From NCBI GenBank assembly GCA_016858145.1, contig JAEHOE010000094.1:372001-436000 (forward strand): a DNA stretch of 64,000 nt, given 5' to 3'. Below are positions 12,008-52,480 of the stretch, one piece after another. The position numbers and the translations under genes were made by a program. The notes beneath the pieces are model-generated. The model worked only from the letters and a program-made list of their open reading frames with translations, was not told where the DNA came from and made no database searches. Position 1 is the stretch's first letter, and the number at the start of each line of letters is the position of its first letter. This DNA comes from Edaphochlamys debaryana (lineage: Eukaryota > Chlorophyta > Chlorophyceae > Chlamydomonadales).

Positions 12008-15000
12008 TCAGGCAGGCGGCGGGCGGCTGACTCCTGCCGCTGCTCCAGTCCCCGCCCCGCTCCGCGTCAGCTCCCACAGATGTATGGCCCCCCGCACACC
12101 CTTGATCGCCACCTCCCCCAGGCAGTGGTACGACACCGTACGGCGGTCCAGGTAGGGCAGTACGGCATCCAGCACAGAGGCGCTGGCGGTGACCTGCAAA
12201 CACGGCACGATGGGCGTTAGCAAGAGGCGAGCTGCGCTGCGCTTCCACGCTGCGCTGCACTGCACCACATTCTGTCCGGTGGCCATTCGTCACCGGCAGC
12301 TTCCTTGCGAGTACGGACGGCGTGACTCACCCCTGTCGTACGGGCCTTGGCGCAGATGCGCGCCGCCCGGTTCATGGGCCGACCAACATAATCCAGGCGC
12401 GCTGTGCGGGGCACTAGCCGCACCTGCGAAGGGTCGAGAGGCGGCACGAAGGGCTTGGGTGCACGAGGGGGAAAGGCGCTGGGAGAGGGGCAGTGTCGCC
12501 GAATCCCCACACCACACTCCGCTAGGCCACACCCCTCAACGCGGGCTGTCTACGGCGCACTAACACCACGCACGTGTGCCCCCGCCCGCCTGTCGCTGCC
12601 ATGCTCTTAGGTTTTAACCCCTACCACGTTGGGCTTGTCCCGCATTCCCGCCCTCCCCCAGGACCCACCGTGGCCGGGCCCCAGTCAACGTATCCCCCGG
12701 ACCCCGCTCCCCGCCCCCACACGTGCAATGGGTGCTCGTACCGCCCGCGCCCCCCTCCAACCCACCCCACCATGGCCGGGCCCCAGTCCACTCCGATGCG
12801 CAGGCGCAGGCCCCGGCGGAGCAGCGCACCCCCTGCGCATTCCGGGGGCGGGGGCGGGCGGGGCAAAGCAGGAGCTTACGGCACAGAGAAGGGGGCAAAC
12901 CCACACTTGTGCCGTGGGCACGTCCATGCCGCTGGACGGCAGCGTCCCGCCCCTCGGCAGATACAAGTGTACCCAAGCAACCTCCGCAACCGCCCCTCAG
13001 CTAAGTACAACCCCTCCAGCGAACCCACGCCGCCACGCACCCTCCCACTCCTCCTCCGTCAGCTCGTGCTCCAGCAGCCCCGGGGGCCAGTCGGCCGCCA
13101 GCAGGGACTCAGCCATGTCCAGGCCCCACAGCACCGCCTGTGTGTGGGGTGGGAGGGGGGAATGTGGGCGCAGTGAGAGGGGAGGGTTGGAGGAGGTTTC
13201 CAGACCCCACAGCACCGCCTGTGGGTAGGGAGGGGGGGGGGGGCGGATGTGGGCGCAATGTGTGTGGGGGGTGGGAGGAAGGGAAGGCAGAGAAGTTTAT
13301 GAGGTGGATGGCCGGAAGGTAGGGGGGAATGGGGGAGGGAGGGGAAGAGCTGGGGGGGGGGTGCTGGCGTGTACCGATATGGTCGAACGCCGACATGTCC
13401 ACCCCACCACAGGGCCCCCTGCCGCCCCCCCCTGGTCCCCTGCTGCCCCCCCTGCTCCGCGTGCGCGAACACCAGCGGTCAAGCACCCTCTTTCCCTCAT
13501 ATGGCCCACACACAGCCCCTACACGAGCTCATGATTCACCCCCTTGTCCGCGCACCACGACAACAGCAGCAGCACCCCCCCCCCACCTGCTCCGGGTGCG
13601 CGAACACCAGCACCCAGTGGCCTCGGTCCGCCGAGGAGGCCACCACGTAGCCGCCGTGCTTGGCCGCGGCGCGCTGGGCGGCCTGCCGGGGCAAGGGCGG
13701 GGAGCAGGCGGGGAGCAGGGGGTGGGGGCAGGAGCAGGGTGGGGAGCAGGGGGTGGGGTGGTTGGGCGCAGGGCGCGGGTGCGAAGGGATGAGCTCCCAC
13801 GACGGGGCTGCTGCGGAGCTCGGGTGAGGCTGACGTGGCCCTGGCTCAAGTGAACTGTTCTGAGCTACCACACCACAGCTGCAACCACCCGCCACCCCCA
13901 CCCCCACCCCAGTCCTACCTGCGCAAACATTGCCAGCGCGGCCGTCACCCTCCCGACGCCGGCCGGCGCGGAGGGGCTGCCCCGGCCGCTGGCGCCGTTG
14001 CTCAGGAGCGTGCGCAGCGTGCGACCCGCGAGGGAGCCCGCAGCGCCGGAGGAAGCCGCCTTGGGCGTGGGGGCGGGGGAGCCGAGGCGGGAGGGGGGCT
14101 GGGGGGCGTCGAGGCCGGGGCGGGGCCGCGTGGGCGGCTCCGAGGGGGAGCCCGAGGGGCCGTGCCGGGGCTGGGAGGAGGTGGGGGTGCAGGCGGGGCC
14201 GGAGGGACCCTGGGCAGCGGGTGGCTGCTCCGAGGCGGCCCTAGGAGAGGGTGCCAGGGGGGCGGGAGGTGGAGGGCGGGGAAAGACGGATGGGTGACAG
14301 CGCGAGGCTGTGAGAGTATGTGATGACATCAGGAGGCCTGCTGCGACGGTTGGCTCGACGCAAAAGCCTCATTCGAATGGCGCCAAGTCGGTTTAGGTAC
14401 CCGAAGGCGCTGTTTATGAGTCCTCCTGACACACCGAGCTAGCGATCCCCGCCCCGCCCCCGCCAGCCCCGTGCCGCACCTCTGCTCGCGCTGCTCCAGA
14501 ATGCGCTCCCACGCGAGAAGCGTCTCCAGCCCCTGCACCGAGCAGAAGAGCGCCGCCACGCGGCCCGCGGGCGCCGCCAGGCAGCCGGGCGCGAGCTGCC
14601 GGGTCGTGCGCAGCCGTCCCCCCGGCAGCAGGGCCAGGCGGCCGAGGAGGCCGGGGGGCATCGCGGCAAAGAGCTCTCGGCCGCAGTCCAGGGCGTCGGG
14701 GGCAAGGCTGGTGCCGGGCTTGGTACTGGCGCCGTGTTCGGGAGGGGCGCCTGCTTGAGCTGGGCGGCGGGGGAGGGGGGGGGAAGGGGCGGGGAAGGTC
14801 CAGGCGATGGGTGCTGGCGCAGGGGTGGCCCTCCAAGGCAGCGGCGGGTCTGGTCTGGCTCTCCGTCGACGCGGACTGACGACTGATGTGCAAGGCGCGC
14901 CCTGCCCCTACGCTCTGCCCTCTTCGCCTGGTCCTTCTCCACGTCAACCCGGCTCCGCAAACCCTGCTCCGTACCCCCACTCACTCGCCGCCCGCAGCAT

Positions 15001-18000
15001 GTGCTCCCCCATGTGGAGCAGCAGCGCACGGCCCGAGTCCCTCTGGCCCCTCTGGCGCATCTGGGGGTTGGATGGGGGCGCGCGAGAGGGTGAGGGAGGG
15101 GTGGGGGTGGGGGAGCGAAGGCGGGCAGGGTAAAAGTGGGATGGAACGGAGTCAGGCGGGCGTTCGAGGCAAGGCGGGTAAGCACGCAGCGATAGCGCCC
15201 TGGTGATGAGCGCCCTGGTGCATTCTGTCCATAGCTCGTGTGTCACGCCCCGGCCGTCGAGCCCCCCGTCTGACCTGGAGCTGGTAGGCACGGAAGGCGG
15301 CGCCGCTGAGGAGCACCACACCGCCCTGCATCCAAGGAGAGAGGAAGGCCACGGGTTGGGTTAGAAAACAAGAGCGCACTGGACACTGGTCGTACAGCGC
15401 TTCCAAGGAGAGCGGGAGGGTCAAGGGTCGGACCTAGGAAAGGAAGCGGAGGATGGGTGCAAGCTAGCTGGATGAGTGCCTGCCGGCTGGTATATGATGA
15501 TTCAACGCCCGCCCGCCCCCACCCCCCCTCCGCTGCCGCTCACCGCCGCCGCGTCGCTCACAGCCCTGGCGATGGCCAGGAAGGCGCCCCTGTACGACAC
15601 ACACTCCACACCAGCATCACGGAAGTTGTGTACGACCTGCGGCGGTACGGCAATTGCGCGTGTGAGCTCTAGACAGGCCTAGGTGCGGGGCGTGGACTCA
15701 GCAGGCGGACCGGCGCGCACACGGTGGCCCTAACGAGTCTACCCCTTCCCCCCTTTCCCTCCCTACCCATCCACCCGCCCCGCCTCACCTCGTGCTTCTC
15801 CGCCCCCGTGTGCAGCCCCACCCGCACCCGCAGGCCGCGAAACACCAGCCGCAGCTCCCCCTCGCCCCCTCCGCCGCCGCCTCCTCCGCGTCCGCTCTCG
15901 TCGTGGCCGAGCTCCGCCCCGCTGTCCTCCCCCGAGCTCAGGAGGGCGAAGCCGCTTGGGTCGAAGGCGGCGTGCGGGCGGCTGACGCTCCTGCATTAGA
16001 AGGGCGGGGCAGGGGCGCGAGTGGGTTGCATAGCGAACGGAGGGTGAAGGAGCAGGCAGGCCTTGCGTCGTCAACATACGCGTCGGACATAAGAGGGAGC
16101 CCCGGGACCGCCCCGGCTTGATGTATAGCTTGCGCAGAACTACTTAGTGCCCTCCCTTTCCCTCCACCCGCCCTCCCCCAAGCCCGGGCTGTGGTCCTCC
16201 TGCCCCCGCCCCACCCCACCTGCATATGGCCTGAATGACCTCGTCCCCCGGCACCGCCCGGTACAGGGTGCCTAGCACTGAGGCCACCGACTGCGCAGCG
16301 TCCCGGCAGGCGGCCCTGGGGCGGGGGGTGGGGGGGCCCGCGGGGGCCAGGGGCAGGGGGGTTAGGGGCAAGAGGCGCTCGTGAGAGGTCGGGGCTGGAT
16401 GGGGGCAGGCGATGTACCGGTATGTGGCAGTGGACCCCGCGTGGCCTGGCCTGACCCGCCCTGTCCTGGCCCGGCCTCCAGGACGTGCCGAGAGGGAGCC
16501 AGGGCAACACGTTTGTCTTTGCATCGAGCGAGCCCCTTCCCTGTCCCCACGCACCTGACGGCTGGCAGGTGGCTGGTGGCGGCGGTGTTGAGGTCCGACC
16601 ACAGCCCATCCAGCGGCCCACCGGGCCCGCCGCCGTGCGGCGACAGCCGCTGCGCCTCGACGTACGGCACCTCCCGTACAGATCCCGCCGCCGTCATGCC
16701 CGTGTGCGACGCAAATCCGCGTGTCGTACTGAGCCGTGCAGCGAGGGCGGACGCGACGCCAATGCCGCCGTGGTGACTAAGCTCCAATGGGATGGGCATG
16801 CCCATGGCACGTGCCAGCTCGGTCGGAGCCATGTTGGGCGACTCTCGGTCATACCCATCGTCTGTGGTTGGGTCCGTCGGCGGATGGTGGTTGGGCGTGC
16901 CGTACAATGAGTCAGCTAGGCCGCCGTTGGCGGCCGCGCCGCCTGCGGTGAACGGTGAGGCGACCGCGCTGGAGAAGAGGGGGCTCGGCGTGCCGAGGGG
17001 GCTGAGCGGGGTGAAGGGACTGGGCCGGGTTGGCGCTGCTAACGGATTGAGCCAGGTGGGACCCGAGCCCTGGCCCGCTGGGCCTCCCGGGCCCTGGGTG
17101 CTGCCCCCCTTGCTGCCGAAAGGGGAGCCAGCGGCAGGTGTCACGGGGCTGACAGCTCCTGCGACGCCAGCGCTCGTCGCAAGACTGGTCAACGCGGGCG
17201 GAGGTTTGACCGGAAGCGTGTTGAGGCCCGCAATCTCGTTCGAGTCCAGCGTTGTGCAGATGTCCCCGTCGTGCGCGAGATGAGACACTCCCTGAAGTAC
17301 GGTTGGCAGCGGGTTTACGTAGCGTTGGCGTAGGCTTCGCGCGGAGTGGCCCGAGCCGGCCGCGAAATTAGTGAACTGCGCATGGTTCGCGACGTCGGCT
17401 GGGAACGCGCCCGGCTCCAATGAAGAAGCGCGCATCGGGGCGTGCACGAGGAACGAGCGGCTGCCCTCGAGCGTCGCGGGCGAAATTGCAGTGCCGGCCG
17501 TTGCTGCCGCATGCCTCGGCGGCGAGGATGGCACGGCAAGATCTTTTCCCGCCATGGCCCCAGCGGCCATACCAAGCGCGTCGATCATAACCGCGGGCAG
17601 ACCGTTGCTGCTATCGCCCCAGTCGGGCTCCCAGTAAACGAGCCGATGCCAGGCCGCGCTGCCGGCGCCTCCGGCCGAAGATGGAAGGAATTCGTCCGTG
17701 TTAAGTCCTCGCAGCGACGAGGGGCGCCGGACCAGGAGGCCCGAGCCTTGGCGGCTGGGGCACGGGCTGTGGGTCCCAGCGTCACTGCCTTGCACCGTGG
17801 ACAGCTGAGGGTGCGGGAAGAGCGCGCCGCCATTGGGCCCGTTGGGGCCCGCTCGGGCCCACGGCGAGGGCGGGCCGTGCTCTCGCAGGATGGAGGCGGG
17901 GGCCGGGACGGGCAGCGGCGAGGATGCCAGTGGGGCAGAGGCCAGCGGGGCAGAGGCCAGCGGCGCGGAGGGCAGCGGCTGGGAGGCCAGCGGTGGCAGC

Positions 18001-21000
18001 TCGCCGCTACCCCGCGATGTCTCGTCCAGCGCCCCGTGTCTGCGAGCAACGGCAGGGGCCGCGGCTGAGAGCAAGCACTCCAACGCGTCTCCCTCCCAAC
18101 CCCTTGTTCCCCCGCCCCCATCCCCGCCCGGCTCTCGACCCTTACCACTCCGCCGCTTCCAGCCCAACCCTTCCCTCGGTTTCCTTCCGCTCCGTCCTCC
18201 CGTGCCCTGGCGCCCCACTCACGGCAACATCAGAAGCGAGTCCCCGGCCGATGGCGCCGACAGCTGCACCGCCACCGCCGCCGCCGCAGGAGCCACGGCA
18301 TGGCCCCCCGAGGCATGGCCCCCCAGCCAGGGCCCACGGATGGGCGGGACCCGCGGCGGCCTTGACCCCGCCGCACCCAGCCCCTCGCCAACGCCGCTGC
18401 CGCCAACGCTCAACCTCCCAGCGGTCTCTAACGCCGCCGGCTCGCCCGGGCTCTCCCTGGGCTCCCCCGCCTCCGTTGCGGACCCCAGCATGGGCCCCGG
18501 CAGGCGCAGGCTGAACTCCATGGTGTTGGAAGCGCGCATGTCCTGTTGAGGCAGGTGGTAACAAGGGTGGGGCGTCCGCGGTGACCGGGAAAATGATAGC
18601 TTTGTACGACACCCATACATACATGGCCGAGCTTGTGCTACCCTCCAGGTCAGTACGACGGCGTGCAAGCCCTGACTTACACCACTGCGTTGCCCCTGGT
18701 CCTGGTCCTAGCTAGCCCCCGCTCGGCCCCACCCCTTTGCCAGCTCACCGGCCGGTAGCCGTCGTCCGAGGTGTAAGACCCCGCTCTGCCATTACTCCCT
18801 CCCACTCACTCTCCCCCCAAACTCCCCAAGCCTTAGAAGGTCCCCCCCCCGTTCCCCCTTTTGCTCACCGGCCGGTAGCCGTCCTCCGAGGGGTTGGACG
18901 AGCGGTTGCGGCCCATGGACAGAGTGGGCTGCAGCCGCTGAAGCCTGGAGGAGGGGTGTGGGGGTTGGGGTGGGGGGTGGGAGGGGGTCGGGGGTGTGGG
19001 GCTGGGGGTCCGCCCGGCCCCCGCTCTGGCGCCCACCGGCTGGCGCTGCCCGCCAACCGCACCCCCCCCCCCACCCCCCTCTTGGCCTAAGGTGGCAGTA
19101 TGTACCTTCACCGGCGATCCCACTGGCAATGTGACCTCTCCCACTCAGCTTCAAACACCCCCCGCCCCCCCCCCCTCGCCCTGGCGCTCACCGGCTGGCG
19201 CTGCCCACCGATCTGCCGCCCGCCCCGGGCAGGCTGGTCGCCCCCGAGCCACTGACCGCCCGGGCCCTGCTGCGCCACTGCTGCTGCATCAGACCCGGCG
19301 CCCCTCCCGCTCCTCCTCCCCCCGTCGTCGCCCCCCCTCCGCCCCCCGCCCCTCGGTCCACGCTTGCGCGTCCGTACAGGCCCAGGCCGGGCCCGTTAAC
19401 TGGGCCCAGACTGGGCCCGGGCCCGGGCCCGGGGCCGGGGCCCGGGCTGGGCCACAGCAGGTGTTGGGCGGTGGCGGGGGGCGGCAAGCGGGAGGCTTTG
19501 ATGAGCGGCAGGCTCAGGGAGGGGGTGGGACCGGAGCGGCGGTGCCCCGGAGCAGAGCTGCGCCCGCACTGCGTCTCGGCATCCCTGCGGTTGATGGGGG
19601 GCGGAGCAAGCGGGCCATAGATAGATGGGTGAGCGGGGTGCAATGGGCCAAGCCAAGCTCTGCCAGCGGGACTGACGCACGCTCTCCCCACGCACGCACG
19701 AGCCCCGCACCGCACCCCTCGCCCTCCCCACATCCGCCGCCGTATCCTAATGTAGTCTTCTAGCCATCGATCTATTCACATCCCACCGCTCGCCCTCCCC
19801 ACCTCGGCAGCGGGGCCTGCTGGGCGGCCATGGCGGCGGCGACGGACGGCGCCCGCCTGCGCCAGCCGCCGCCGCCCGAGGTGGGCGGCTGCGCGTCCGG
19901 CGCGGCGGGCGCTGGCGGCGGCGGGCGCTGGTAGCGGGCCCAGACCTCGCATGCGTCGGGCTGGCGGAGCAGCTCCGCGTGCCATGGGGCCTCGAGAAGG
20001 TCGAGCTGAGGGGGTTTGGGGGGAAGGGGATGAGGAGGGAGGAAGGGAGGACGGCCGCAGCCCTCAGCTAGCATGGTACCTGCTGCTGGCATTAGCCGCT
20101 GGCCCTCTTGCTACCCTTCCCGCCCCTCTGATCCTCAAGTCGTCAATGATCACCTCCTGCTCAGCCCTTAACCCACCCGCCTGGATGGACACCGCGAAGC
20201 CCAGCCGCCACGAAGGCGTCCCTTCCGGTACACCTACACACACGTCTCCCGCCCCCCGTTTCCCCCCCCCCCCCCTTCCCCCGCCTCCCCACCTGGACGG
20301 ACACCGCGAAGCCCAGTCCGTCATCGGGGCAGTGGAAGGCCGCCACAAAGGCGTCCCCCTCGGTGCTCACCTCCACTCCGTGGTGGAGCGCGATGGCCTG
20401 AGGGGGTGGGGGTCAAGGGTGTCGGGTGTGGGGGGGTGGGTGTTAGGGGCAGGGAGTGGGGCAGGGGAGCGAGTGGGTGACGAAGCGTGAGCAAGGTAGC
20501 AAGGCACGGCTCAGGGGGTTAATAAGTGACGGTGGATTTTGCGGCTCTGTCCGGTCCTGTCCGGTCCGGTCCGGTCCTATCCGGTCCGGTCCGGTCCGGT
20601 CCGGTCCTGTCCATCCGGTCCTCCCCATTCCGCACCTTCCGCATGACTGCGTGGTGGGCGCACAGCGATGCGTCCATGACGTCCGCCGACACCACCTCCC
20701 ACAGCAGGGTGGAGTTCTGGGGAGGAGCGGGCGCGTGAGGAGGGGCGGGTAGCGAGGTGGGTCTTGAGCCGTACCGTACGGCGTGCTGACCAGGTCCCGA
20801 CCCACATCGCTCTGGATACCTACGCCCCTACACCTCGTGCCGCAGCGATGCAACGCCCATGGCGCCCGTGGCAAGTACGTGACCCCGGTCCGCAAGCAGG
20901 ACATTCGGTACGGAAGCTTTGTAATAAACGAGCATGGAGCACAGGCATGCCCGGAAGCCGCCGCAGTACGACGCAGTACGGCACCGCACGCACCTGTATG

Positions 21001-22578
21001 TCGGTCAGCGCCAGCGTGGTCATGGGCCCCGCATCCGGCGGCCGTGACGCCCGTAACGCTCGCTGGTGCTCCCGCAGCGGCGAGCGCCGATGCATAGTGA
21101 ACAGAAAGACCAGCAGCGAGAGTGCTGCCAGGCCAAAGACGAGGCCAACTGCCAGGGAGATGGAGAGCCGCGTGTTGGCGGGCTTGCCGGAAGACGAAGC
21201 GTCGAGTGGGGAGGCGGGCGAGGTGGCCAGGGTGTGCTCGTACAGCGTACGGACGATGTGGGGGTAGGGGAAGCCTGGTGGGCGGGTCGACGCCGAGGGC
21301 GGGCGTGGTTGGTCGGGGCTCAGCTTGAGTAGAGGCAGCTTTGGCATTGGGCCCAGGGAGGTGCACACCCTTTACGCGTTCAGGCGTCTGGCCCCCACTG
21401 CACCCCTCACCGGCTGCAATCGCCCGGACCTCCGCGGCTGCCTGGTCTGCAAGCCGCGCCGCGGCCTCTGCGCTCAGGCCTTCATTACCCGCAGCAGCGG
21501 CGGTGCCGCTGGCATTGGCCGCCGCCCCCGCCGCCGCCTCAACTGCCGCAACCGCAAACCGGTCCAGCAGGGCCCTAAGGGGAAAAGGAGATAGAGGCCA
21601 TGCGTCGGGGACATCTGGAGGTGACTTGGGGGTTACAAAAGGTGTGCGTGCCTTTTCACGAACCCGCCACTCCGGCACACCTGTACTGCCGACTGAACGG
21701 CAGTGTGACGTCGTACGCCTTGTTGGGGTGGGCTAGGGCAGCAGAGACGGCCTGCGAGTGGACACACGCGGGAGGAGGCGAGGTAGGTCACAGTGGAGGG
21801 TCCGCTCCAATCCGCAGCCCGAGGGCTGAGGTCCTGCTCCCGCCATCCCCCAGCAAGCCGGCCCCTAGTTCAGCCATGCAACCCATAGTCCCATGCCACA
21901 CACCCCGTATATAGCAACAACAACAGTACGTTTAGCGCCCCGCCTCACCGCCCTGACGGCCGCCATGTCCGCCGGGTGCAGCCCCAGCACCTCCCGGGCC
22001 TCAGCGCCCGATGCCTGGGCGAACGCCGCCCCCAGCATGGGCACGCCGCCGCCGGCCCCGACGCTGCCGTCGCAGCCGCCGCCGCCGCCACCCCCGCCGC
22101 CGCCCCCGCCGCCGCCTTCGCCCGCCACCACGGCGCTCAGCACGACGGCGGCGCCCCTCAGGACCAGGGCCGAGAGCCCCTCCTGGTCGCCGGAGGCCAG
22201 GAGGCCTGTGCCGGCCGCGGTGCCCACGTGCGTGGGGACGCCCGAGAGGAGCGCGAACGTGTGCGCCAGCTCCAGGCCCACGGTCCTGCAAGGCATCGGT
22301 TGGTGAAGGGCGTGTGCGTGAAAGGCGGAAGGTGCTGGCGCTGGCAGTAGAAGTTGCGGTATGGCATCGTCGCCTACCGCCACCCCCTGCCCGCTCTGCC
22401 GTCCCCAAGCCCGGTACCCCCGCCCTCCCTAGCCCTCATCCCTCCCCGGGGTTCGCAGCCCCCCCCCACCTGGCCAGCCCGTCCACCCTCAGCTGCTGCG
22501 GCAGTGTCAGGTTGGGAGCCATGAGCCACACATCCCCCGCCTCCGCCACCAGCGGCGCCGCGCTGACGCCACCGCTGA

Positions 22579-22613
<35 letters not shown>

Positions 22614-35040: not shown

Positions 35041-35291
35041 AGGAGGGTTGGTTCCACGGCATGCTCCGGCGTGCTCGGCCCGGGCCCGGGGCCTTGTTGG
35101 CTGGCAGCTCTCGCGGCCAGGCACGTGCGCTGGCCCGCCCCAGGTTAGAGCTTGCCCGCCCACGCGCACATGCATCCCGTCCCCTCAGAACATGACCACC
35201 CCCTAGTACCATCTGACACGTAGGATCAGGCGCCCCATTCCGGCCCGGTAGAGGTTTGTGTCGGGTCGGACCCACCAACTTGCTGTTGTTG

Positions 35292-35296
35292 TTACA
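35292..35296 (-). terminator. Candidate poly(A) signal for RMD5 homologue
   Basis: TTACA on + lies about 735 nt beyond the RMD5 stop codon. Positional support only. Confidence 0.3.
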
Positions 35297-36030
35297 CGCG
35301 CGGAGGACAGGATAGGAGGGCCACACACGTCGTATCCGCCGGACCCCCCGGACCCTGCCAACGGCAGAGGCACAGAGAATGCGAGGTCAGGACACCTAAG
35401 CCCCCGCCCACGCCTGTACAGTTCAGTCCTTGCGAAAGACGAACGTTCTCATCATGCTACCGACGTAGGGCCAGTGCGCGCAAAGACAACGTCCGGATAC
35501 GCCGGCTGCCCCCTTGCGCCGTCCGTCCACCTCGCTCGACACATGAATGCCTCTGCACAGCACAGCACAGCCCCCATGCATGCATGCCGCCCTAGTGCAC
35601 AACCCCGCCCCTTCTGGAGGCGGCTCCGACTTGGGACCTCCTGCTGTAGCCACTGGCGCCCACTACCGGCTGGCCTGCCTCGCTCCTCCACCTGACCCCC
35701 CGCCCCTCATCCATCCCCCGTGCAAGGGTGAAGGCAAGACGACCCCCACGGGGCTCCCTCAAGTGCCAGGCTGCCGCGGGGCGACGCAGGCGGCGCACAG
35801 GCAGTGCCGCCGCCTCCCGCGCCTCAGCCGAGCAAGGGCTCGTACGTAAGGATACGAGGCACGTGTGGGGCACATTCGTAAGCCTCTCTCTCAGCAGTCA
35901 ACGCCAAAAGCGACATCACGCGGTCACCCAGCTCTTGCCGGCCTCCCACTGCCGCTGCCGCCTCAGCAGTCTCCCGCCTCCCACTGCCGCCTCAGCAGTC
36001 TAGGTCACTCATGCGCCCTCCCCTCCCTGA

Positions 36031-40711: not shown

Positions 40712-40924
40712 TCTCTCTGTTACCACTTCGTTTCCATCCCTATGCAGTGTGCGGGTTGACGCATAGCAAGGGCACGCGGGTGGGGGCGGGGGGGTGAGGC
40801 CCCGCCATGTCACTGCCCGCTGCGATCCCGCCTTTGCCCCTGCTCCGTGTGGTCGCCCCCCGCTTCCCCCGCCCACTCAGCAACTCTCCCCTTCCTTCCA
40901 CTGCGCTGCGATGAAGTAAGCACT
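40712..40924. promoter_or_regulatory. Short bidirectional promoter between RMD5 and ClpB-like genes
   Basis: Only 213 bp separate the two opposed start codons, so promoters and both 5' UTRs must be shared or overlap. On the ClpB side, ATGAAGTAA at 40911-40919 is either a two-codon upstream ORF or, read as GTAAGC, a donor in the 5' UTR. No TATA box is evident. Confidence 0.6.
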
Positions 40925-43900
40925 ATGACAAGCACAATGGACCCTATGGACTTCGGCGAGGTCAAGCGACCATCCGATGCCGCAGACACAGCCAAGCTCA
41001 CCTGGGTCGACCTGCTTTACAAGCACGTAGGGCAGCTAGCAGTATGGGGCCTGCTGTTCGTCTCTGTGACGCAGCTGCTGGACTGGTGGACAAAGAAGCA
41101 AGCGGCCAAACGGCAGCAGGCGCTCGCTGCTGCGGCAGCGGCTCCAGCTTCTGCCGCGACATCGTCTGCGGCCGCGGGGAAGGCGCAGCCCGCGGAGCAC
41201 CCCGCGTTCGATGAGGTACGCGAAGCGTCGGGGCTTTGGCGGCCGTGCGCGTCTCTGCGCCTTGCAGAGCACCGTTACCCGCTTGCACGAGTAACTAGGC
41301 ACCTTAGGCCTCGTAAGTCCGCGATCTAGGCCTCGCGCGGCAGGCCTTCTGGTCCGATCACCATGTGCAGCCGATGCCGCTCGGCGTAGTGGCCCGAGCC
41401 TTAACTCGAGCCCTCGGGGCGACGCAGCTGCTTGTTAGCGTGCGAGGGGGTACGTCGGTGACGACTCCCAAGTGCTTCGAGAGCGGAGGGGGGGGGGCTA
41501 GGACGTAGGAGGGGGCGAGGGGCCGGAGGCCCAGCTCCCACCCCACCGAATGCAGCTGACCCTGACTCAGCAGGTACCGCTCTGAACGAGAAGGCCCCGA
41601 AGCCTGCTGGGGGGGGCACCTGAGCGTGGGGCAGCACCGAGGGCGAAGGGCCAAAGGCCCAGACCACACCCCACCGAGTCATCAATGCGACTAACCCTGA
41701 ATCAGCACGTAGCCAGTGCTGCTCAGCTGCTTGTCAACCCCCACCTCCCTCTCTAGCTGGTACTGGTACCTCCGGTTCGGTTGGGCTCCGATGGGGGACC
41801 CGGCACCAGAGTCAACGCCGGTCGGTCCTCCCTACCCTGGCACATTCCCCCAGAGCTCGCACAAGGCGGAGGTGGAGGCGCTGCTGGCGCGGGCCCAGGC
41901 GCAGGCGGCCAAGAGCGGGGAGGGCAAGATGACCCTGGAGCACATGGTGCTGGCGCTGGCGGAGAACCAGAGGTGGGGCCGGGGGCTGGAGGGGGGTGTC
42001 AAAGGCAGCGTGTGTGTTTGTGCGTGCCGGGGTCAGAGGGAAATGACTCTGGAGCACATGGTGCTGGCGCTGGCGGAGAACCAGAGGTGGGTCCGGGGGG
42101 CGGAGGTGGGTGTCAGGCGGCAGTCGTGTGTGTATGTGCGTGTCGGGGTCAGGGGCATGACGCACAGCGCTGGCGGAGAATCAGAGGTGGGGCCCGGGTT
42201 TGAGGTTGGAGAGGCTGGATGGGGGGACGTGTGGCGGGGGCGGGGCTGCAGCGGCGGGTTCTGGTGGGAGAGCACGAGAGGCGGGGTGGGTAGGGGCGGG
42301 ACCGCTGGGCCCAGAGAGCGCGGCCAGGTCATTACGATACGCCCCGTCTCGAGACGTGACGCGACCCGGTGCGTAGTGTTGTGTGCGTAGTCGGGAGTGC
42401 GTAGTCGGGAGTGTTGGCGCTAGAGCGCATTCTGACATGGGGGGACGAAGCGGGTGGGAAGGGAGGTACGTGAACACAGGCGGCCCGAGGTGCCAATGCT
42501 GGGTGGAGGGTGGGGGCGGGGGATGGCGCGGCGCCCCCAGCCCTGGCCCTGGGGCGGCAGCGGTGGTGCGGCAGGGGGGGCTGGGGCGATGGAGGGGAGG
42601 AGCGAGGTCGGTGTGGGGGAGCAGTGATGGGGAAGAGATGAGGGGTCAGTGATGGGGAAGGCGCGCCAGGCCAGGCCCCGCTGGGCCCTGCTGGAGCGGC
42701 AGCGATGGGCCAGTGATGGGGTGGCAAGGCCTCGGGGGCAGCCCAGCAGGGATGAGGGGCAGCAGATCAGGAAGACACAGTTCAGGGCTTGGGCGGTCCA
42801 GAGAAAGCACGATCGCGATGAGGCGCCTTCCTAGCATCCCGCCGGATGAGGGCATGGGCGCGACGGGCGGCCCGGCGCCTGCGCCTGCCGCTTGACGCCC
42901 CATCAGCCGCTGTGAGCCTTACTCCCGGTCACACACAAACCTGACCTCTCGCTCTGGACCTCGGGGCGCATCGGGCTCGCTGTGAGCCCAACTCCCGGTC
43001 GCACCAGCCCCCCTAGCCACTCGCTGGCTGCCGCCACGCCTTTCCTCTCCGGTCTTCAACTCGTCAGAGACCACCCCAACCCGACCCCTCTCCCCTCCCC
43101 CATCCCGGAGGGTGGCATGCGCCAGGCACTGATCCGCCCCACACCCAAACCCGACCCACCGACCCATCCATCTGACCCCATCCGCCCCCCATCCGCCCCC
43201 CCAGGTTCCAGGAGATCCTGTCCTGCGCCGACTCGCTCTCCGAGGACGACCTGCGCAAGGCCGTGCGCAAGTCGCGGCTCATGTACAACCACCCGGAGGG
43301 CAGCCTGGTGCGTTGGCGGTTGGGAGTTGGAGGGGCGGGGTTTGGGCACCGCCCCTGACCGCAAGCCCACTGCCTGCCGGCCCCCCTGCCCCAGCTTCCC
43401 GGATAGCCCGCACCCCCCTGCCCCGCTCAGCAACAGACACCCCTTTCCCGACCCGCCCACCCCCGTCCCTGCACCTCGTCCGTACGCCCCCCACCGCATG
43501 CCCCCTCATCTCTCGTCCCCTTTGTCCCCCACCCCAAACTCCGCCCTCCTCCCTCCCCTGCCAGGAGATCACCGAGGCCCCCCCAACCGCCCTCATGCGC
43601 TACGGCCGCGACCTGACCGCCCTGGCTCGGCAGGGCAAGCTGGACCCCCTCATCGGCCGCACGGACGAGCTGCGCAGGTGGGCGGCGGTTGGGGCAGTTG
43701 GGCGGTTGGCTGTTGGGTGGGCCGCGAGCGATGGTGGGCGTGTGGACGAAGAGGCAGCCCACCCTTGCTGCTGAGACTGGCACTGGTGGCTGGGCCGTAC
43801 CGTACTTGCACACCGGGCCCTTTCCATCCAACCACCCCAAACCACCTTCCAACCACCTCCCAACCACCCGCAACCACCTCCCAACCACCGCCCCAACCAC

Positions 43901-46900
43901 CAACCACCTCCCAACCACCACCGTCCAGGCTCTTCAACGTGCTTTCCCGCCGCACCAAGAACAACCCCGTGGTGCTCGGGGAGTCGGGGGTGGGCAAGAC
44001 CGCTCTCATCGAGGGCCTGGCGCAGCGCGTGGCGGCGGGGGACTGCCCGCCCGCGCTCAAGGGGGCGGCCATCATCGCGCTGGACATGGGCATGCTCATG
44101 GCGGGTGAGCGGTTGGAGCGGTTGGTGGTTGGGCGGTTGGATGGGTGGTGGTGACAGCTTGTGGAAGCCTCGGCGTGCAGCCTCGGCGTGCAGCCTCGGC
44201 CCCCCGCTTGTATCCCCCCCGAACTTCTCTCCGTCTCGCTCCAACCGCCCCCCCCCCCAGGCGCCACCTTCCCCGGCGAGTTCGAGCAGCGCATGTCTGC
44301 CGTACTCAAGGAGCTCAATGACCTGCCCAAGCAGGTACGGCACCGTACTGCACCGTACAACATCGTACAACACAGCAGGGGTGGAATGCACCTTCTCCCG
44401 GTTGCACACCGTGGCTTTACTCTCACTCCGACGCATGCTGCCGTTAGCTCTCCTTCGTCCTTTGAACCTCACACTCCGCGCCCCCCCCACTCCAGCCCCC
44501 CCTCCGCGGACCCCCCACTCCAACCCCCCCTCCGCGCCCCCCCCCCAGGCCGCCCAGGCCAAGGCCTCCGCCCCGGGCGCCCCCCCCGAAGCCCCCGGCC
44601 CCGACCCCCCCTCCTCCTGCATCCTCTTCATCGACGACATCCACAACGTCACGGGGCCCAACGCGCAGCAGGTACGGCACGGTACGGCACGGTACGGCAC
44701 GGCGCGGTCGACCCACCCACCTAATAACTACCACATCTGCCCAACCACCTCACCAACCAGCCTCTCAACCGCCCCAACAACCTCACTAACCACCTTACCA
44801 ACCGCCCCAACCGCCCCAACCAACCAACCAACCCCAGGGCGGCGGCGTGAACGACGCCTCCATGCTGCTCAAGCCGCTGCTGGCGCGCGGGGAGCTGCGC
44901 TGCATCGGCGCCACCACCCCGGACAAGTACCGCCGCTTCATCGAGAAGGACCCGGCCCTGGAGCGCCGCTTCCAGACGGTGGGTGGGGGGAGGCCGGGGG
45001 GGGGGGAGGGGTAAGGGCTAAGGGAAGCCAGACGGTGAGGGTGAAGCACGGAACGAGCTTTGTGGAGCACGGTGGAGGCGGTAACGGTTGATGCACGTCG
45101 ACCCCTCACCCGTCGGCCCCCTCACCCGCTTTGCCCCTCCACCCCCGACATCTCCACCCTCCACCCTTTCACCCCCCCCCTCCACCCCTCCACCCCCCCC
45201 ACCCAGCTGCCCATCTCCCAGCCCTCTGTGCCCGAGGCCATCTCCGTTCTGAGGGGGCTGCGGGCGCGGTACGAGCGCCACCACGGGCTCAAGATCACGG
45301 ACGCAGGTGCGGGGGAGGGGGGGAGGGGGCGGAGGGGGGTGTCAAGGGGGCTGCGTGTGTGTTTCGTGGGGGGTACGAGCGCCACCACGGGCTCAAGATC
45401 AGGGACGCAGGTGCGGGGGAGGGGGGGGGAAGGTGGTATGCGTGTGTGTTTCGGGACGCGGGGGAGGGCCCCGTGAGATCCACGAGCGTGCGACAGCAGT
45501 GCAGTGCGGGCTACCATTCTGTGAAACCCTGTCGCGCGGTCAATACTTGCCCCTCTCTCCCCTGCAGCCCTGGTGGCGGCTGTGGAGCTGTCGCACCGGT
45601 ACACGGCCGACCGCTTCCTGCCGGACAAGGTGGGGGGGGGGGGGGCGGCGGGTCTGGGAGGGGCTTGGTGGGGGATACGGACGCGTTCGGGTCGAGTAGC
45701 ATTTTAGGACTGACTGGGCTGGGATGAGGAGGGCTGACAGCTCCCGGGGGCATAATTTGTGGTTAACGTGGTGTCGTCCACGATACGTAGATACGTAGAT
45801 GAAATGCAACTTTCATGCCCGCTACCCCTCGTTCCTCTCGTTCCTCGGCGGCGGGGGCGGCTGCGGGGGCGTGTGGGCGGGCCAGTGGGACGACGGACGT
45901 CCCCGCCGCGGGGTCCCGCCAAGCAAGGCAGGCTGTGCTTCCCTGGTGCAGGCGGTGCTGAGCAACAAACACCCACCCACCCCATCCCCCGCATCCCCTT
46001 CCCCCCACCCCCACCCCCCCAGGCCATCGACCTCATCGACGAGGCGGCCGCCCGCGTGAAGCTGGACCTGGACCAGCGGCCGGCGGTGAGGGGGCGGGGG
46101 GGAAAGCGAGGGAAAGGAGGGGGTGGGAGAGGGGGCGTGTGTGTTTCGCCCACGCGCTCCTGCTGGTCCGTGGCACTGGACGTGCGCAGGAGGGGCACCA
46201 GGCATCAGGCTGCACGTGCACATTATTGACCAGGTGGTCACATGCACTCGCACATGCACATGATCTTGATCTTGATCTTGATCTTCCAACCTCCCCCCCC
46301 CCCCCGCAGCAACTGGACCGTATCGTCCGCCGCATCGCCCAAATGGAGGCGGAACGCAAGCTGCTGAGGCGCAGCGCCAGTGAGCCGCGGCGGGGGGCGG
46401 GGGGGGGCGTTGAACGGACTGGGCTAGCCGCAGGAGCCTCGCGAGGTCGCGCGAACCGCTCAGCCCGAACGTGACGTGGACAAGCGGAAACGGATTGGGC
46501 TACGAAAGGGAATTGGAAGCTGAGCTTCCACTCCCGTCAACCCGCCCCCCCCCCAGGCGTGGACAAGCGCGACGCACTGCGCCTGTCGGAGCTGGAGGCG
46601 GAGCTGTCGGCGCTCAAGACGCAGCGGGACGAGATGACGGCGCGGGTGGACAGGCAGCAGACCGAGGTGGGGGGGCTGGGTGGGTTGGGGTTACTGGGGG
46701 GGGGGGGGGGGGGCAGTGGGGCCCCGACCCTGCCCCGCTCTGTCGTCGCCGACCCGCAAGCTGCCCTCGCCTGTCCTGCAATGTGTTCGCTGCCCCAACC
46801 GCTGCTGGCCACACCGCACCGCTCCCCCACCCAGGCCCGCGAGCGTCAGCAGCTGGGCCACGAGCTGGAGGCACGCGCGTCAAAACACACCCACATTTCC

Positions 46901-49900
46901 CCCCCTTTACCCCCTTCACCCCCCCTTGTCCCCCCCCCCCAGGCCCGCGAGCTGCAGCAGCTCAGCAGTGACCTGGAGGCGCTGCACGAGGAGGTGGAGG
47001 CGGAGGAGGCGGGGCGCAGCGAGGCGGCGCAGGCCGAGGCCGCCAACCGGCCCAAGAGCGACGCGGAGCGGATCAAGTGAGGGGGAGGGGACTGGGAATG
47101 GGGTGTTCGAGTATGGCCGTACAGCCGTACAGCTGCGTGTCGTACAGCTCGGGAGGCCGTACGCCAGAGAGCGGTGCAGGGGATCAAGTGGGGCAGGCGG
47201 GTTGGTGGCAGTGGGGCATAGCACCTCCGCGCCACACAGCACCCACACGTGACCCTGCCCCTTCCCTCCCCCCCCCGCCAGGGCGGACCGCGAGCGAGTA
47301 CGGCGGCGCGAGGAGCTCCTGGCCAAGCTCAAGGCGGCGCAGGTGCGTCACGTGCCTGCCGTACGTGCTGCGTGGATGCTTGTCCGCACCGATTGCGGAG
47401 GCCGTACATGCGCCAGGTCGCAAGTTTGGGCCTGCGCCCTTGGAGCCTCCGTTCCAGTTCGCAGTACTGCCGTACTGCCGTGTGCTGCCTGAACCCGCTG
47501 GTCCTGCCGCCCCGTCTCGCACCACCCCTGCAGGAGGCGGCGCGCAAGCGGCGAGCCAACTCGGAGGCGGTCAAGTCAGGCGGCCTGGGGGGCGAGGTGA
47601 GGCTGTGCGGGTGCTGGCGGTAGTACCTCTGCCCATCCTCCGCCTGCCTTTCCGGCAATGCTCTCCCATTTACGGTATAGCGGGCGTCGACACAGACCGG
47701 ACAGGTTTGCTTGCTCTGTCGGTGTAGACCCGTTGCAGGCCCCCATGCCCCTCCAGCAACCCCCCCACCGTACAGCCGGCCGTACCGCCTCTCGCCTTCC
47801 CTCTCGAACCTGCACTGCGCTGTGCTACCGCCAGCCTGCCATCCACCCCTGCCCCCCCACCGACCCACCCGCCCCGCACCTCCCCCCCCCCTTCCCCCCC
47901 CCCCCCTCCCCCCCTCCCCCACCCCAGGTGAGCGAGGCCGACATCGCCTCCGTCATCTCCTCCTGGACCGGCATCCCCCTGACCAAGCTGGTGGCTTCGG
48001 AGCGGGACAGCCTTCTGCGCCTGGGGGACGAGCTGCACAGGTGGGTGGGGCCAGGGGCTGCGGAGCCGTTGCGACGGGTCCCAGGGGCCCGGCCTCACCG
48101 GTTGCGCCCCCACCCCCGCCCTCCTGGCGCGGCTTGCGGGCTCGGGCTGGGGTATGTCCTACTGCGTTCGGTCGTCTTCTCGCCGACTTCTCGCCGTCTC
48201 GTCACGACTAGTCCTAGGGGCCAGGCCTCCGGCTGACAGGCCTGGGCTCGGGGTGACTAGAGGACCCCGCCTGTGGGGCCGGGCTCCCGAGTCCAGTGCT
48301 GACAGCTTGGAACGGGCCCCTACAACAGCAACGGCAGCGGCGGCGGTAACAGGGCTGGGCTCCGGGCTGGAAAGGACTGGGTCGGGGTGACGAGTGGACC
48401 CCACCGGGCTGCGTTGCGGCTGTGGGCGAGACCGGGCTCCAGCAATCTGCACCGGGGCTTGGAAGGCTGCGCCGTCCACTTACTAGCCTCACGCCGGCTT
48501 GTTTCCGCCCCTTACGCCCCCGCTTCACCCCACCCCTCCCCCCAGGCGCATCATCGGCCAGGAGGAGGCTGTGTCGGCGGTGGCGGACGCCATCCACCGC
48601 TCCCGGGCGGGTCTCAAGGACCCCAACGGCCCCATCGCCTCCTTCCTGTTCCTGGGGCCCACCGGTGGGGGGGATCGTTGGCTCTCCCCCAGGGCAGCCG
48701 CCCGCGCGAGCGGGTCGCACCTTGCGGCTCCTGCCGTGCACTCATGTTCTCGCCTGACCGGACCGAGCTGGTCAAGGCTCTCATCACTCCGCTTACCGCG
48801 CACTGTCCGTTGACCGTCGACGACCGTTGACCGTTGCCCCCCCACCCCCAGGCGTGGGCAAGACGGAGCTGGCCAAGGCGCTGGCCTCCCAGCTGTTCAA
48901 CGCGGAGGACGCCATGGTGCGGCTGGACATGTCGGAGTACATGGAGAAGCACGCGGTGTCGAAACTGATTGGAGCGCCACCGGGTAAGGGGCACATCTGA
49001 GGGATTACCTATGAGGTTCTGCAGATAGGCAGAGGGGAAGGGCGTGATAGGGTGAGCTTGCTCCTAGCTTGTTGTTGGATAGGGCTGTATCGAGGGACAA
49101 GGGACCAGCGGGGTCTAGTGCGCCTAGGGGGGCCCAGGCCCTCTGTGGGAAAGGCCATGCCCCCCGGCAGCCGCGTGCTTCTGCTCCGCCTCAGCTCCTT
49201 CCGTAACGCTTCAACCCCTCCGCCTCCTTTCCTTCCCCCCTGCCCCCCCTGCCCCCCCTGCCCCGCCCCCCCCCCGCAGGCTACATTGGCTTCGACGAGG
49301 GCGGTCAGCTAACGGAGGCCGTACGGCGGCGGCCGTACACGGTGGTACTGTTCGACGAGGTCGAGAAGGTGGGCGGACGCGACGCAGCGGTTGGTTTTGA
49401 GAGCAGCACCCAACCGCCATCCACTATGCAAGGCCCTCGTACCGCCCGCGTGTCAAAACACACACGTTTCCCCCCTCCCCCCCTTCCCCCCAGGCCCACG
49501 TGGACGTGTTCAACCTGCTGCTGCAGCTGCTGGACGACGGCCGCCTGTCGGACGCGCAGGTGGGGAGGGGGCGGGGGGGAGGGGGGAGGGGGACCGCGAG
49601 GGGAGAGCGGGGAAGAAAGCGGGGGAAGGTGTGTTTCGGCACGCATGCCGTCAGGGGGTAGCACTGCAGCTGCTGGACGAGTGCGGTTGGCCGCCTGTCG
49701 GACGCGCAGGTGGGGAGGGAGAGAGGGTGAGAAGGCGGGGAAAAGGTCCTTTTCGGCGTGCATGCCGTCGGGGGCTGAGGTCGCGGGAGTTGGGGCCGAC
49801 GTTTGTTGCACACCTGCCTTTGCAGCCAGCCGTCAGGGGGCCCCGCGGTCGGCCTTTTGTCGCCATGCCTCCTCTGCCCCAACCCGCTCCTGCCCTCCCC

Positions 49901-52480
49901 CAACTCTGTCGCCCCCCACATACTATACCCTGTATCCCCCCTTGTCCCCTCCCCTCGCCCCCCCCCCCAGGGCCGCACCGTGTCCTTCAAGCACACCATC
50001 ATCATCATGACGTCCAACCTGGGCTCGGGTGCGTGGATCTGTACGGAGATCTGCACGGGAGATCCGCGAGATCTATACGCTGGAGGCCCCATGACGCCTG
50101 CTCGACGGCCTGACTGCAAACCTCAGGGTGTGCCACGCCTTCTCACTGCGCCATATACGCCCCCCCACACGCACCATCCCGCCCCTTCCCATCCCGCCCT
50201 CACCCCTCGCCCCATCTTCCCCCCTCCCCCCCAGCTGAGATCTACCGCGCCACCGCCGGCAAGGGCGCCGCCGCCGCCGCCGCCCCCGTGGACACCCGCA
50301 TCCGCGAGCTGGTCATGGACCAGGTGGGGGGAGGGGGGACGGGGGGGAAAACAAGGCGTGTCTATGGGTTGGGGCACGCATGTGGTAGTACGGCATCCCA
50401 GAGCTGGTCGTCGACCCGCTGAGGAGGTCCGGGGGGGGCCGCGGGTTGCGCACAGATGGCTTTCACATGAGGGATCAGCGTCACAGACGGCACTAGAGCA
50501 GTGGCGAAGTTGCGTGGAAGGGAGGCTCTCCTACCCTCCCTTGAACCTTCCTCCTCCTGCTCCCTCTCGCTTACCTCCCCCCCCACCCCACCCTACCCCC
50601 GCAGGTCCGCAAGCACTTCCCGCCCGAGTTCCTGAACCGGGTGGACGAGTTCATCATCTTCGAGCCCCTCACGCAGCACCAGGTGGGAGGGTTTCGGGTG
50701 GTTGGAAGAGCGGTTGGCGGGTGGTTGCAACAGCGGTTGGGACTGGCTTTAGGCAGCCTGTTGGTTGGATGGTGGAGGGGCGACACCTGGGAGCATGCCC
50801 CTGGACCGGCCCCACAACACCTTACTGGTACCTGCACCTCTCCTCCCTGCTCCGTCGCCACCCACCCATTCACCCCGCACTACTGCACAGAGCCATGACC
50901 CACGCAACCCCCTCCCCCCCTTACCCCCCCTTACCCCCCCCCTAGATCCGCTCCGTGGTCCTCCTCCGCCTGGTGGGCCTGGTGCAGCGGCTCAAGGACA
51001 AGAAGATCCGCCTGGTGCTGGCGGACAGCGCAGTGGGGCACCTGGCGGGTGGGTGATGGGTTGGTGGGGGGGGGAGGGGGAAGGCCAGGGGTGCCTGGGG
51101 GGGGAGGGCCTGGTGCTGGCGGACAGCGCAGTCTAGGCAGGCAGCGCTTAGAGGGCACAGGGCCCCACGCTCCAAGGCTCGGGTTTGGGCGGCTTACCTC
51201 TCCCTGCCCCTCCCCCTCCACTCCCCACTCCCCCCTGTACCGGGGCGCCGCACGCGTGCCCTGACCCGCATACACACGCCCTGTTTCCCCCCCGCCCCCC
51301 CCCAGCTAAGGGCTTCGACCCCATCTTCGGCGCCCGCCCCGTCAAGCGGGCCATCCAGCGGGAGGTTGAGACGCCCCTGGCGCAGGCGCTGCTGAGGGCG
51401 GACTTCGAGGTGGGGGGCTGCGGGGGGGGGGTGGAGAGGTGGGGGGCTGGGGGGGGAAGAGGAAGGGCGGGGGGGAAGAGGGAGGGCGGGGGGGAAGAGG
51501 GAGGGCGGGGGGGAAGAGGGGGGAGGGCGGGTGTGTGTGGAGCCCGTGGCGCAGGCCCGGCTGCGCAGTCTCAACGTTTCTTTCTTACCTTGACTCCCTC
51601 GCTTGACACCATCGTTGTCCCCCAATCGCGGAACGGGGGTGTGTAGGGGGGGAGGGGGGAGGAAGACACCGTGCTTGTCCCCCTTTCACGCTTTGCTTCC
51701 TTATGCCCACGCCACCCCGCACCCCAAACCACCCCTCAGGAGGACGACACCATCTTCGTGTCCGCATCGGAAGACGGAGAGTCGCTGCTCTTCCGCCGCG
51801 TACGCCCTGGGGAGGACACGCCCAGCGCCAACGACACCCCCGCCGCCACCCCGCCCGACGCCGACATGCCCGCCCTGGAGGACGACTTCACGGGCCCAAC
51901 CGCCGCGATCTCGTCAACCGCCTCAACCGCCAACGGCTCAACCGCCGCGCCAACCGCCGCCAAGGCGCCCGGCGGCGGGCCCTCGCTGCCGCCGCGCAAG
52001 GGCCGCTTCGATGCCACCAAGGCTCTGTCGGCCAAGCACGCAGCGGGTGGGTACTGGGGGCTCGGGGGAAGGGGGCTTCGGGGGAAGGGGGCTTGGGGGA
52101 AGGGGGCTCGGAGGAGGGGGGGGGTGAGGGGGGGCGGAGAAGGGGGTAAGCCGGGAGCGCGTTATGAAGCCTCAGCGAAGCTTGCGAAGCAGCGGGGGGC
52201 TGCGGTGGAGGCTCAGGAGGCGGTAGTACCGTAGTGGGGAGGGGCGCGGCTTGGGAGGTGTATGGAGTGCGCGGGTGCAATCTGCCGTTGCTAGACTCAA
52301 GGTCAGGGCTCTGACCGCCGTCAACCGAACCCACCTACTGCGCTCCTGCCTTCCTCCTCAGCCCCCTTTCCCCTCCCTCCCTCCCTCCCGCTCCACCCTT
52401 CCCGTACAGGCGAGGATATCAGCCAGGACGGGGCAGAGGCCAACCGTGACGACTTTTCCCTCCCAACCAACTGCAACTAA
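40925..52480 (+). CDS. Hsp100/ClpB-family AAA+ chaperone with N-terminal membrane helix
   Basis: ATP-driven disaggregase-type protein, about 1,077 residues in 28-29 exons. Exon 1 encodes a membrane helix ([16 protein letters not shown], residues ~37-52), then an Ala-rich linker; the membrane location is inferred. Clp-N part: [30 protein letters not shown]1: [20 protein letters not shown], Walker A GESGVGKT (43979), pore loop [11 protein letters not shown], Walker [11 protein letters not shown] (the catalytic Glu is Asp), Arg fingers PALERRF. Coiled middle domain about 46310-47596. AAA2: [26 protein letters not shown] (48850), [15 protein letters not shown], Walker [46 protein letters not shown]. 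The middle domain and lack of a ClpP-binding loop favour ClpB over ClpC/A. The acidic, Thr/Ala-rich tail ends LPTNCN. Exons 1 and 2 do not join in phase directly; an 11-nt microexon at 41439-41449 (flanked by TAG and GTACG) would fix this. Confidence 0.92.
41929..42210 (+). repeat. Triplicated ClpB exon 2/intron 2 junction
   Basis: ATGACCCTGGAGCACATGGT through the donor and about 70 bp of intron (41929-42041) is repeated at about 42042-42155 and partly at 42156-42210, with a period near 113 bp. The second copy still encodes [15 protein letters not shown] and keeps a GTGGGT donor. Each complete copy includes the intron core with GTGTGTTTG or GTGTGTATG. Confidence 0.92.
45268..45462 (+). repeat. 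Duplicated ClpB exon 9/intron 9 junction
   Basis: GTACGAGCGCCACCACGGGC TCAAGATCACGGACGCAG plus donor and G-rich intron start (from 45268) recurs from 45370 with one coding difference. Both copies end in a GCGTGTGTGTTTCG core. Period about 102 bp. Confidence 0.92.
46833..46981 (+). repeat. Duplicated ClpB exon 14 acceptor edge
   Basis: AGGCCCGCGAGCGTCAGCAG (46832) precedes the true exon start AGGCCCGCGAGCTGCAGCAG (46941) by about 110 bp. The upstream copy has a good acceptor but no donor. Between them lies the complementary form of the intron core (GCGTCAAAACACACCCAC) followed by a C-rich tract. Confidence 0.85.
49520..49775 (+). repeat. Duplicated ClpB exon 21/intron 21 junction
   Basis: Exon end GCTGCTGGACGACGGCCGCC TGTCGGACGCGCAG with donor GTGGGGAGGG and a downstream TTTCGGCACGCATGCCGTC (49640s) is repeated from about 49670, including a second GACGCGCAGGTGGGGAGGG (49698) and TTTTCGGCGTGCATGCCGTC. 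The copy carries a small insertion (GTGCGGTTGG) in the coding part. Confidence 0.85.
51012..51138 (+). repeat. Duplicated ClpB exon 25 end
   Basis: CTGGTGCTGGCGGACAGCGC AGT (51012) is repeated at 51111, inside the following intron. The copy stops before the donor. Confidence 0.8.
51448..51530 (+). repeat. G-rich tandem repeat in ClpB intron 26
   Basis: Units of about 23 bp (GGGGGGAAGAGGGAGGGCGG) occur three to four times. Non-coding. Confidence 0.8.

Follow-up and report, generated by a model that had tools for sequence, protein, structure and literature searches.

Partial copies of exon edges inside introns of Edaphochlamys debaryana: probable relics of recurrent short-range duplication across exon-intron junctions

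A tandem duplication in a potato RdRp gene that spans an intron-exon boundary, copying an exon edge together with its splice site (PMC4974935), is the closest precedent found for the partial copies of exon edges ("echoes") that occur inside introns of Edaphochlamys debaryana. The potato event is described as having produced a new intron in one gene, whereas in E. debaryana existing introns seem to have been lengthened, in several genes and on both sides of the intron. Models of intron gain by tandem genomic duplication and by break repair with direct repeats have been reviewed (PMC3443670). Tandem genomic duplication resembles the present case in that exon sequence comes to lie in an intron through local duplication (PMC3443670, PMC2891723), but the E. 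debaryana copies lie mid-intron, include an existing splice site and occupy introns much longer than the unit. Intron length therefore does not equal the duplicated unit as such a gain would have it, the echo-bearing introns measuring 247-1232 bp against a median unit of 112. Intron gain at staggered breaks in Daphnia likewise leaves direct repeats around inserted DNA (PMC3443670); the E. debaryana repeats differ in holding 18-53 exon bases and in lying in introns that need not be new.

In mouse cells, breaks with protruding ends are joined by non-homologous end joining (NHEJ) or polymerase theta to give tandem duplications, and some inserts derive from flanks within 250 bp (PMC5730883). These small duplications are similarly local, with inserts sometimes drawn from nearby flanks (PMC5730883, PMC8355091), although they have been observed in mammalian cells and the E. 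debaryana case is known from sequence alone. The core-Reinhardtinia are reported to have long introns and to lack the usual short-intron peak, a trait whose advantage the genome authors describe as unknown and whose mechanism they consider likely ancient (PMC8226300). No description of recurrent exon-edge copies in existing introns was found among titles and the openings of abstracts, a search that left subscription journals mostly outside. The type of event is thus a known one, and what is new is its density and the lengthening of existing introns.

The window is a stretch of 64 kb (C94:372001-436000) from the 142-Mb, 502-contig assembly of E. debaryana, which was built from PacBio reads, polished with Illumina data and annotated by BRAKER under the guidance of stranded RNA-seq (PMC8226300). 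A hidden Markov gene finder was trained on the window and on 25 stretches of 10 kb each, taken from other contigs at fixed offsets. It yielded 66 gene pieces with 493 exons and 439 introns, of which 427 introns had both flanking exons present and were testable (90 in the window and 337 in the other stretches). The median intron length in these models is 191 bp, close to the published 198. The ClpB model matches protein HYH03_013784 at 100% and is identical to the annotated protein from model residue 9 onwards, a check that rests on the annotated protein sequence and not on the exon coordinates of the annotation. The RMD5 exons adjoining echoes are backed by four relatives in tblastn searches. 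Six gene models outside the window bear echoes, and a Pfam scan of four of them returned strong domains in three and none in one. The gene finder also erred, calling parts of echoes as mini-exons (37109-37132; 13216-13218) and thereby splitting both introns. Among the model introns of at least 160 bp (n=287), the G fraction after the donor is 0.55 in the 20-nt bin that begins at +6, and the C fraction before the acceptor is 0.62; the two trends cross mid-intron, so that the two intron ends could pair, judging from base composition. At its start (5-2848), the window holds a degenerate C-rich tandem array with a 24-bp unit in about 116 copies.

The original prediction held that introns of ClpB, RMD5 and a cyclase-type gene contain partial copies of the adjacent exon edge, and all 14 coordinate pairs that it listed align on scoring. 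Its guess of a volvocine lineage is correct as well. Their local scores range from 28 to 77 and their matches from 14/14 to 40/41 bases. Against about 1450 random intron windows for each pair, half of them reverse-complemented, the p values are 0.0007-0.002, and these are conservative because the null pool still held the same introns.

A systematic edge test set each 40-bp exon edge against the intron that it borders and against 300 introns from other genes, matched for length. The lowest p was reached by 12/79 donor-side (5') and 6/80 acceptor-side (3') edges in the window, where about 0.3 would be expected, and by 6/313 and 8/316 elsewhere, where about one would be expected; both kinds of exon edge are affected, as had been proposed. 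At an edge score of at least 36 there were 7 donor-side and 1 acceptor-side matches in the window and 5 and 2 elsewhere, against a null rate of at most 0.00002. The controls stayed low at the lowest p: exon-interior segments gave 1/55 and 0/53 in the window and 1/232 and 2/238 elsewhere, reverse complements 2/79 and 0/80, and 3/313 and 0/316, and the next intron 0/70 in the window and 2/272 elsewhere. Non-adjacent ends therefore do not match as often as adjacent ones, the next intron and the introns of other genes lying far lower at the lowest p. At the looser threshold of p<0.05, two window controls rose above expectation (6/55 for the interior and 8/70 for the next intron), and weak matches in the window therefore mean little. 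Edges shorter than 30 bp, and introns too long to have 20 matched controls, are outside the reach of this test, and because of these limits introns 41973-43204 and 39286-39781 are absent from its matches despite clear echoes. When dinucleotide-shuffled introns served as the null, scores of at least 30 were observed in 12/86 donor-side and 4/86 acceptor-side cases in the window (0 and 0 expected) and in 7/319 and 5/323 elsewhere (0.5 and 0 expected). Comparison of the terminal 40 bp of exons with flanking introns thus gives, over the 427 introns, an excess over both nulls. The echoes and sources located in the three gene regions of the window are collected in Table 1.

Table 1. Exon edges (sources) and their copies (echoes) in the window; positions are those of the window.
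Gene	Feature	Position	Strand	Details
ClpB	exon edge + donor + intron start, source	41929-42001	+	exon end 41972; TRF unit 114 bp x2.1; HSP d=114, score 121; spacer duplicated too
ClpB	first echo of 41929 edge, donor GT retained	42043-42115	+	extension to echo donor in frame, open
ClpB	decayed further copy of 41929 edge	from about 42156	+	TRF x2.1
ClpB	exon edge + donor, source	45268-45323	+	exon end 45306; HSP d=104, 98% identity
ClpB	echo of 45268 edge, donor GT retained, spacer duplicated in part	45372-45427	+	HSP
ClpB	echo of acceptor-side edge, upstream of real acceptor	46824-46872	+	HSP d=108, 82% identity
ClpB	real acceptor + exon edge, source	46932-46980	+	exon start 46943
ClpB	exon edge, source	49521-49559	+	exon end 49559
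ClpB	echo of 49521 edge with 7-bp insertion, donor GT retained, spacer duplicated in part	49664-49709	+	
ClpB	exon edge, source	51010-51034	+	exon end 51048; HSP d=98, 25/25
ClpB	echo of 51010 edge, ends ~14 bp before donor, no spacer similarity	51108-51132	+	HSP
RMD5	echo of donor-side exon edge	36410-36449	-	HSP d=133, score 65
RMD5	source of 36410 echo	36543-36582	-	exon 36547-36731, confirmed by RMD5 relatives
RMD5	acceptor-side exon edge, source	36978-37021	-	HSP d=114, score 73; exon confirmed by relatives
RMD5	echo of 36978 edge	37092-37135	-	part miscalled as 24-bp exon by gene finder
RMD5	weaker echo	37542-37569	-	source 37631-37658, d=89
RMD5	echo of acceptor-side edge 38417-38445	38520-38548	-	d=103
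RMD5	acceptor-side exon edge, source	39258-39288	-	HSP d=121, 31/31
RMD5	echo of 39258 edge	39379-39409	-	HSP d=121
Cyclase-type gene 1	echo of donor edge	12664-12689	-	source 12766-12791, d=102
Cyclase-type gene 1	acceptor-side edge, source	13118-13160	-	echo 13199-13241, d=81; intron split by 3-bp model exon
Cyclase-type gene 1	echo of donor edge, same intron as 13118 pair	13446-13476	-	source 13581-13611, d=135; echo donor GG
Cyclase-type gene 2	echo of donor edge	18743-18774	-	source 18863-18894, d=120
Cyclase-type gene 2	echo	19010-19054	-	source 19165-19209, d=155
Cyclase-type gene 2	echo absent from the originally predicted pairs	20176-20204	-	source 20288-20316, d=112; echo donor GC

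Should the 3-bp model exon be wrong, both exon edges of intron 13138-13586 are echoed within it (13118/13200 and 13452/13588). Partial DNA matches to the two adjoining cyclase-type genes (window 12000-24600) are numerous elsewhere; they form local clusters on C172, C134 and C31, and some are recent copies.

A scan that ignored annotation returned 108 repeat pairs at distances of 20-600 bp, 39 of them in the window; two control ranges at far distances returned 5 and 3. By class, the near pairs comprise 28 exon-intron or junction pairs, 26 within introns, 36 within exons (30 of these at a distance that is a multiple of three), 14 intergenic and 4 mixed. A few of the 28 exon-intron or junction pairs, for example those at distances of 452 and 546 bp, are probably of another kind. 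Given the intronic and intergenic pairs, the duplication process is not specific to splice sites. Echoes are found genome-wide in a few percent of introns and are about four-fold denser in the window, with 12/90 introns bearing them there, in line with the dozen or so predicted, and 11/337 elsewhere (Fisher p 7e-4), a comparison in which one window event was added by hand and the window itself had been picked because echoes were noticed in it.

Twenty-three events, selected by edge-test scores with cuts of 33 (donor-side) and 28 (acceptor-side), describe the anatomy of the echoes; the one in 41973-43204, an intron too long for the test, was added by hand. The cuts are uneven, five of 27 candidates with scores of 26-29 having been dropped and acceptor-side ones of 28-31 kept, and the set omits 13118/13200, 36988/37103 and 39261/39382, which were missed by the gene models or the test. 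Of the acceptor-side events, three (L004, L014:2932 and L021:7511; scores 28-31) are weak and may be chance matches.

The copied part of the exon spans 18-53 bp, with a median of 27. A ceiling of 44 bp on this part was considered and dropped: three of the 23 events exceed it, and the echo of 20006-20292, inspected by eye, runs further upstream past a gap. Source and echo are separated by 42-284 bp (median 112, quartiles 102-127), and 19/23 distances fall at 80-160 bp (P 5e-5 against uniform placement), which agrees with the predicted spacing of about 80-155 bp. The junction lies inside the copy in 19/23 events, so the splice site is often included, as had been claimed; the remaining four copies end 9-14 bp short of it. 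Over 634 aligned bases, copy and exon differ at 39, a mean divergence of 6% with a range among events, and on this ground the events look recent and repeated. The predicted graded decay, recurrence and lack of full-exon copies are borne out by this divergence and by the size of the copied part. The events are clustered by gene (permutation p 0.002). A slight excess of G at the intron start marks the echo introns of the donor side (p 0.01) and is absent from those of the acceptor side.

Introns with echoes are longer than others (median 335 vs 188 bp; Mann-Whitney U, MWU, p 1e-9), and still measure 219 bp after subtraction of one unit, although this link is partly one of ascertainment because short introns cannot show an echo about 110 bp away. 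The idea that echoes are the way introns grow is therefore sustained in part: the tie to length holds, but only about 3% of introns (11/337) outside the window carry an echo. This suggests that detectable echoes are one source of intron length, and a role as the main source is unsupported.

The echoes are probably relics of recurrent short-range duplications across exon-intron junctions, which would lengthen the introns and then decay. Under such a process, a stretch around a splice site, comprising about 20-50 exon bases, the site and a little of the intron, or sometimes a unit of about 110 bp, would be copied, placing a second splice site about 110 bp inside the intron. The outer, original site would stay in use, leaving the protein the same and adding at most one unit to the intron; the inner copy would decay. 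The cause is probably error-prone repair at staggered breaks, or else a switch of template, often with filler DNA. Junction-crossing duplications would be the easiest to detect, as exon-internal ones would mostly be selected out and intron-internal ones would have no conserved partner. From the observed pattern we infer that the echoes originate in repair, that they decay neutrally and that introns grow on balance. The proposed direction of duplication is read from a single genome; in the C84 and C172 paralogue copies, used as empty sites, intron-internal differences were found and no polarised junction echo. Some observations speak against duplication across junctions: simple slippage would not lead one to expect so narrow a distance mode, sources confined to exons are few beside those that span a junction, and the clustering by gene is not expected of a uniform process. 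Short-range duplication across junctions is nevertheless held more firmly than either of the two mechanisms by which it might arise; repair with filler or template switching is favoured for most events and duplication of a whole unit for some.

The first of these mechanisms, break repair with filler or templated insertion, would double only about 25-75 bp around the junction and leave unrelated DNA in between; it is a tentative choice, judged to fall somewhat short of an even chance. Its test lies in the spacer, the intron part of the unit, which a plain tandem duplication should have doubled as well. Significant spacer duplication occurs in 4/23 events (41973, 45307, 49560 and L025:3344), and under a third scoring 41973 alone of these four remains below 0.05, with two weak events reaching significance. 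In the other 18 events tested, the resemblance within a spacer pair is about that between spacers of unrelated introns (median p about 0.4; combined p under three scorings 0.20, 0.16 and 0.05), as filler would predict. Filler is also consistent with short, near-identical intronic pairs that show no further similarity (L021:7545, 41 bp at 98%; L022:8756, 33 bp at 97%), with an intergenic pair of 27 bp at 100% (L010:2944), and with the gap-filling direct repeats described for intron gain in Daphnia (PMC3443670). An insertion in intron 2 of the ClpB paralogue L029, missing in two paralogues, has the same form, a 24-bp repeat (22/24) around 15 unrelated bases as judged by eye, in an intron that differs from its paralogues elsewhere as well. 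Against filler, some intron-internal pairs extend like tandem repeats (L015:3130, L025:1325), the starts of spacers resemble normal G-rich intron starts, which is odd for random filler, and no filler source was found for the two spacers searched.

Plain tandem duplication of the whole unit of about 110 bp, followed by much faster decay of the G- or C-rich intron part than of the exon copy, is the more doubtful of the two, though a serious possibility. It draws on the four events with significant spacer duplication, on splice-like flanks at both copies, and on 45307 and 49560, where a G-rich spacer with large gaps stands beside an almost intact exon copy; since these spacers have changed far more than the exon copies, faster decay of simple sequence stays a live alternative. 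The 18 events with no clear spacer similarity oppose it, as does a neutral-decay simulation based on exon-copy divergence, with tripled indels, which rejected the whole-unit model in 15 of the 20 testable events, 49560 included, on the assumption of equal mutation rates and with three of the 23 events outside the test. The recent ClpB paralogues on C84 point both ways. Among them, intron 1 differs by 10-22%, more than the four-fold sites of its flanking exons pooled, as rapid intron decay would have it, but introns 2, 4 and 5 of L028 and L030 differ by only 3-5%. Introns of these paralogues may have been gene-converted, which confounds the test of intron hypermutability on intron 1 and on introns 2, 4 and 5 alike.

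Among L028, L029 and L030, most intron interiors are either about 95-100% or about 45-67% identical, with intron 1 and L029 intron 2 intermediate, although the exons on either side show little difference at four-fold sites. Gene conversion in patches or replacement of whole interiors may account for this uneven similarity. L029 intron 3 (1336-1922) is about 440 bp longer than its L030 counterpart and possibly holds a mobile element.

A broader conjecture, considered unlikely, is that a lineage-characteristic repair process repeatedly inserts unrelated DNA, about 60-100 bp long, into or next to splice junctions, with duplicated flanks of 20-55 bp at a set distance of about 110 bp, adding or replacing intron interiors in single steps. 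This process would be a main driver of the unusually long introns of core-Reinhardtinia, and would show itself again in the nearly all-or-none similarity of introns among the ClpB paralogues on C84.

Retention of the echoes as decoy or alternative splice sites, a role the original prediction had raised, found no positive support and is improbable. GT or AG is kept in 16/23 echoes, and 14 of these 16 intact sites score above the 5th percentile of real sites; in ClpB, moreover, the extension to the echo donor of intron 41973 is in frame and open. Use of that donor (41973-42086) would insert 38 in-frame codons with no stop, repeating part of the protein. The annotated ClpB protein, however, uses the outer, original sites, and the RNA-seq-guided annotation ignores the ClpB echoes; no insertion appears in the ClpB proteins of Pleodorina, Volvox and C. 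reinhardtii at any of seven junctions examined, of which two bear weak echoes only. The dinucleotide has been lost in 7/23 echoes, and the unit length is a multiple of three in 9/23, with no clear frame preference. Predicted use of the 16 intact sites would leave an open stretch in 11, five of them in frame, and meet a stop in 5. Many echo sites are still well formed, for which youth alone would suffice; a mean divergence of 6% can account for intact sites with no selection. Flanks of the echoes are splice-like in comparison with mid-intron DNA, being G-rich after donors (p 0.014) and pyrimidine-rich before acceptors (p 0.002). Such flanks could hint at function, but they are expected if the flank was copied along with the site or if the echo is the older site. 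Nothing in the data requires a function of the echoes.

Insertion of introner-like mobile elements with target duplications is still less probable. Direct repeats around apparently unrelated DNA of similar size would fit it, but neither the spacer of 41973 nor that of 36455-36546 matches anything else in the genome (in a search that may skip common words), no complex 11-mer is common to six or more introns, and the exon parts of the echoes exceed the target duplications of 3-9 bp described for some introner families (PMC9860276). The motif GTGTGTGTTTCG, present in several ClpB spacers, proved uninformative, with six copies in 314 kb. Chance or assembly artefact can be practically dismissed: many weak matches do occur in G/C-rich DNA and three of the 23 events are weak, but the excess over other-gene introns, shuffled introns and far distances, the graded decay and a PacBio assembly polished with Illumina data (PMC8226300) all stand against it.

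For the biology of this lineage, the value of duplications across junctions lies in the fact that one of the two copies is under coding constraint, which makes each junction echo a marker for local duplications with a built-in clock. Such a clock would allow the rate at which introns grow by duplication to be measured within a single genome. With the echoes come many pairs of nearly identical splice sites, spaced by about 110 bases, on which the choice made by the spliceosome may be tested.
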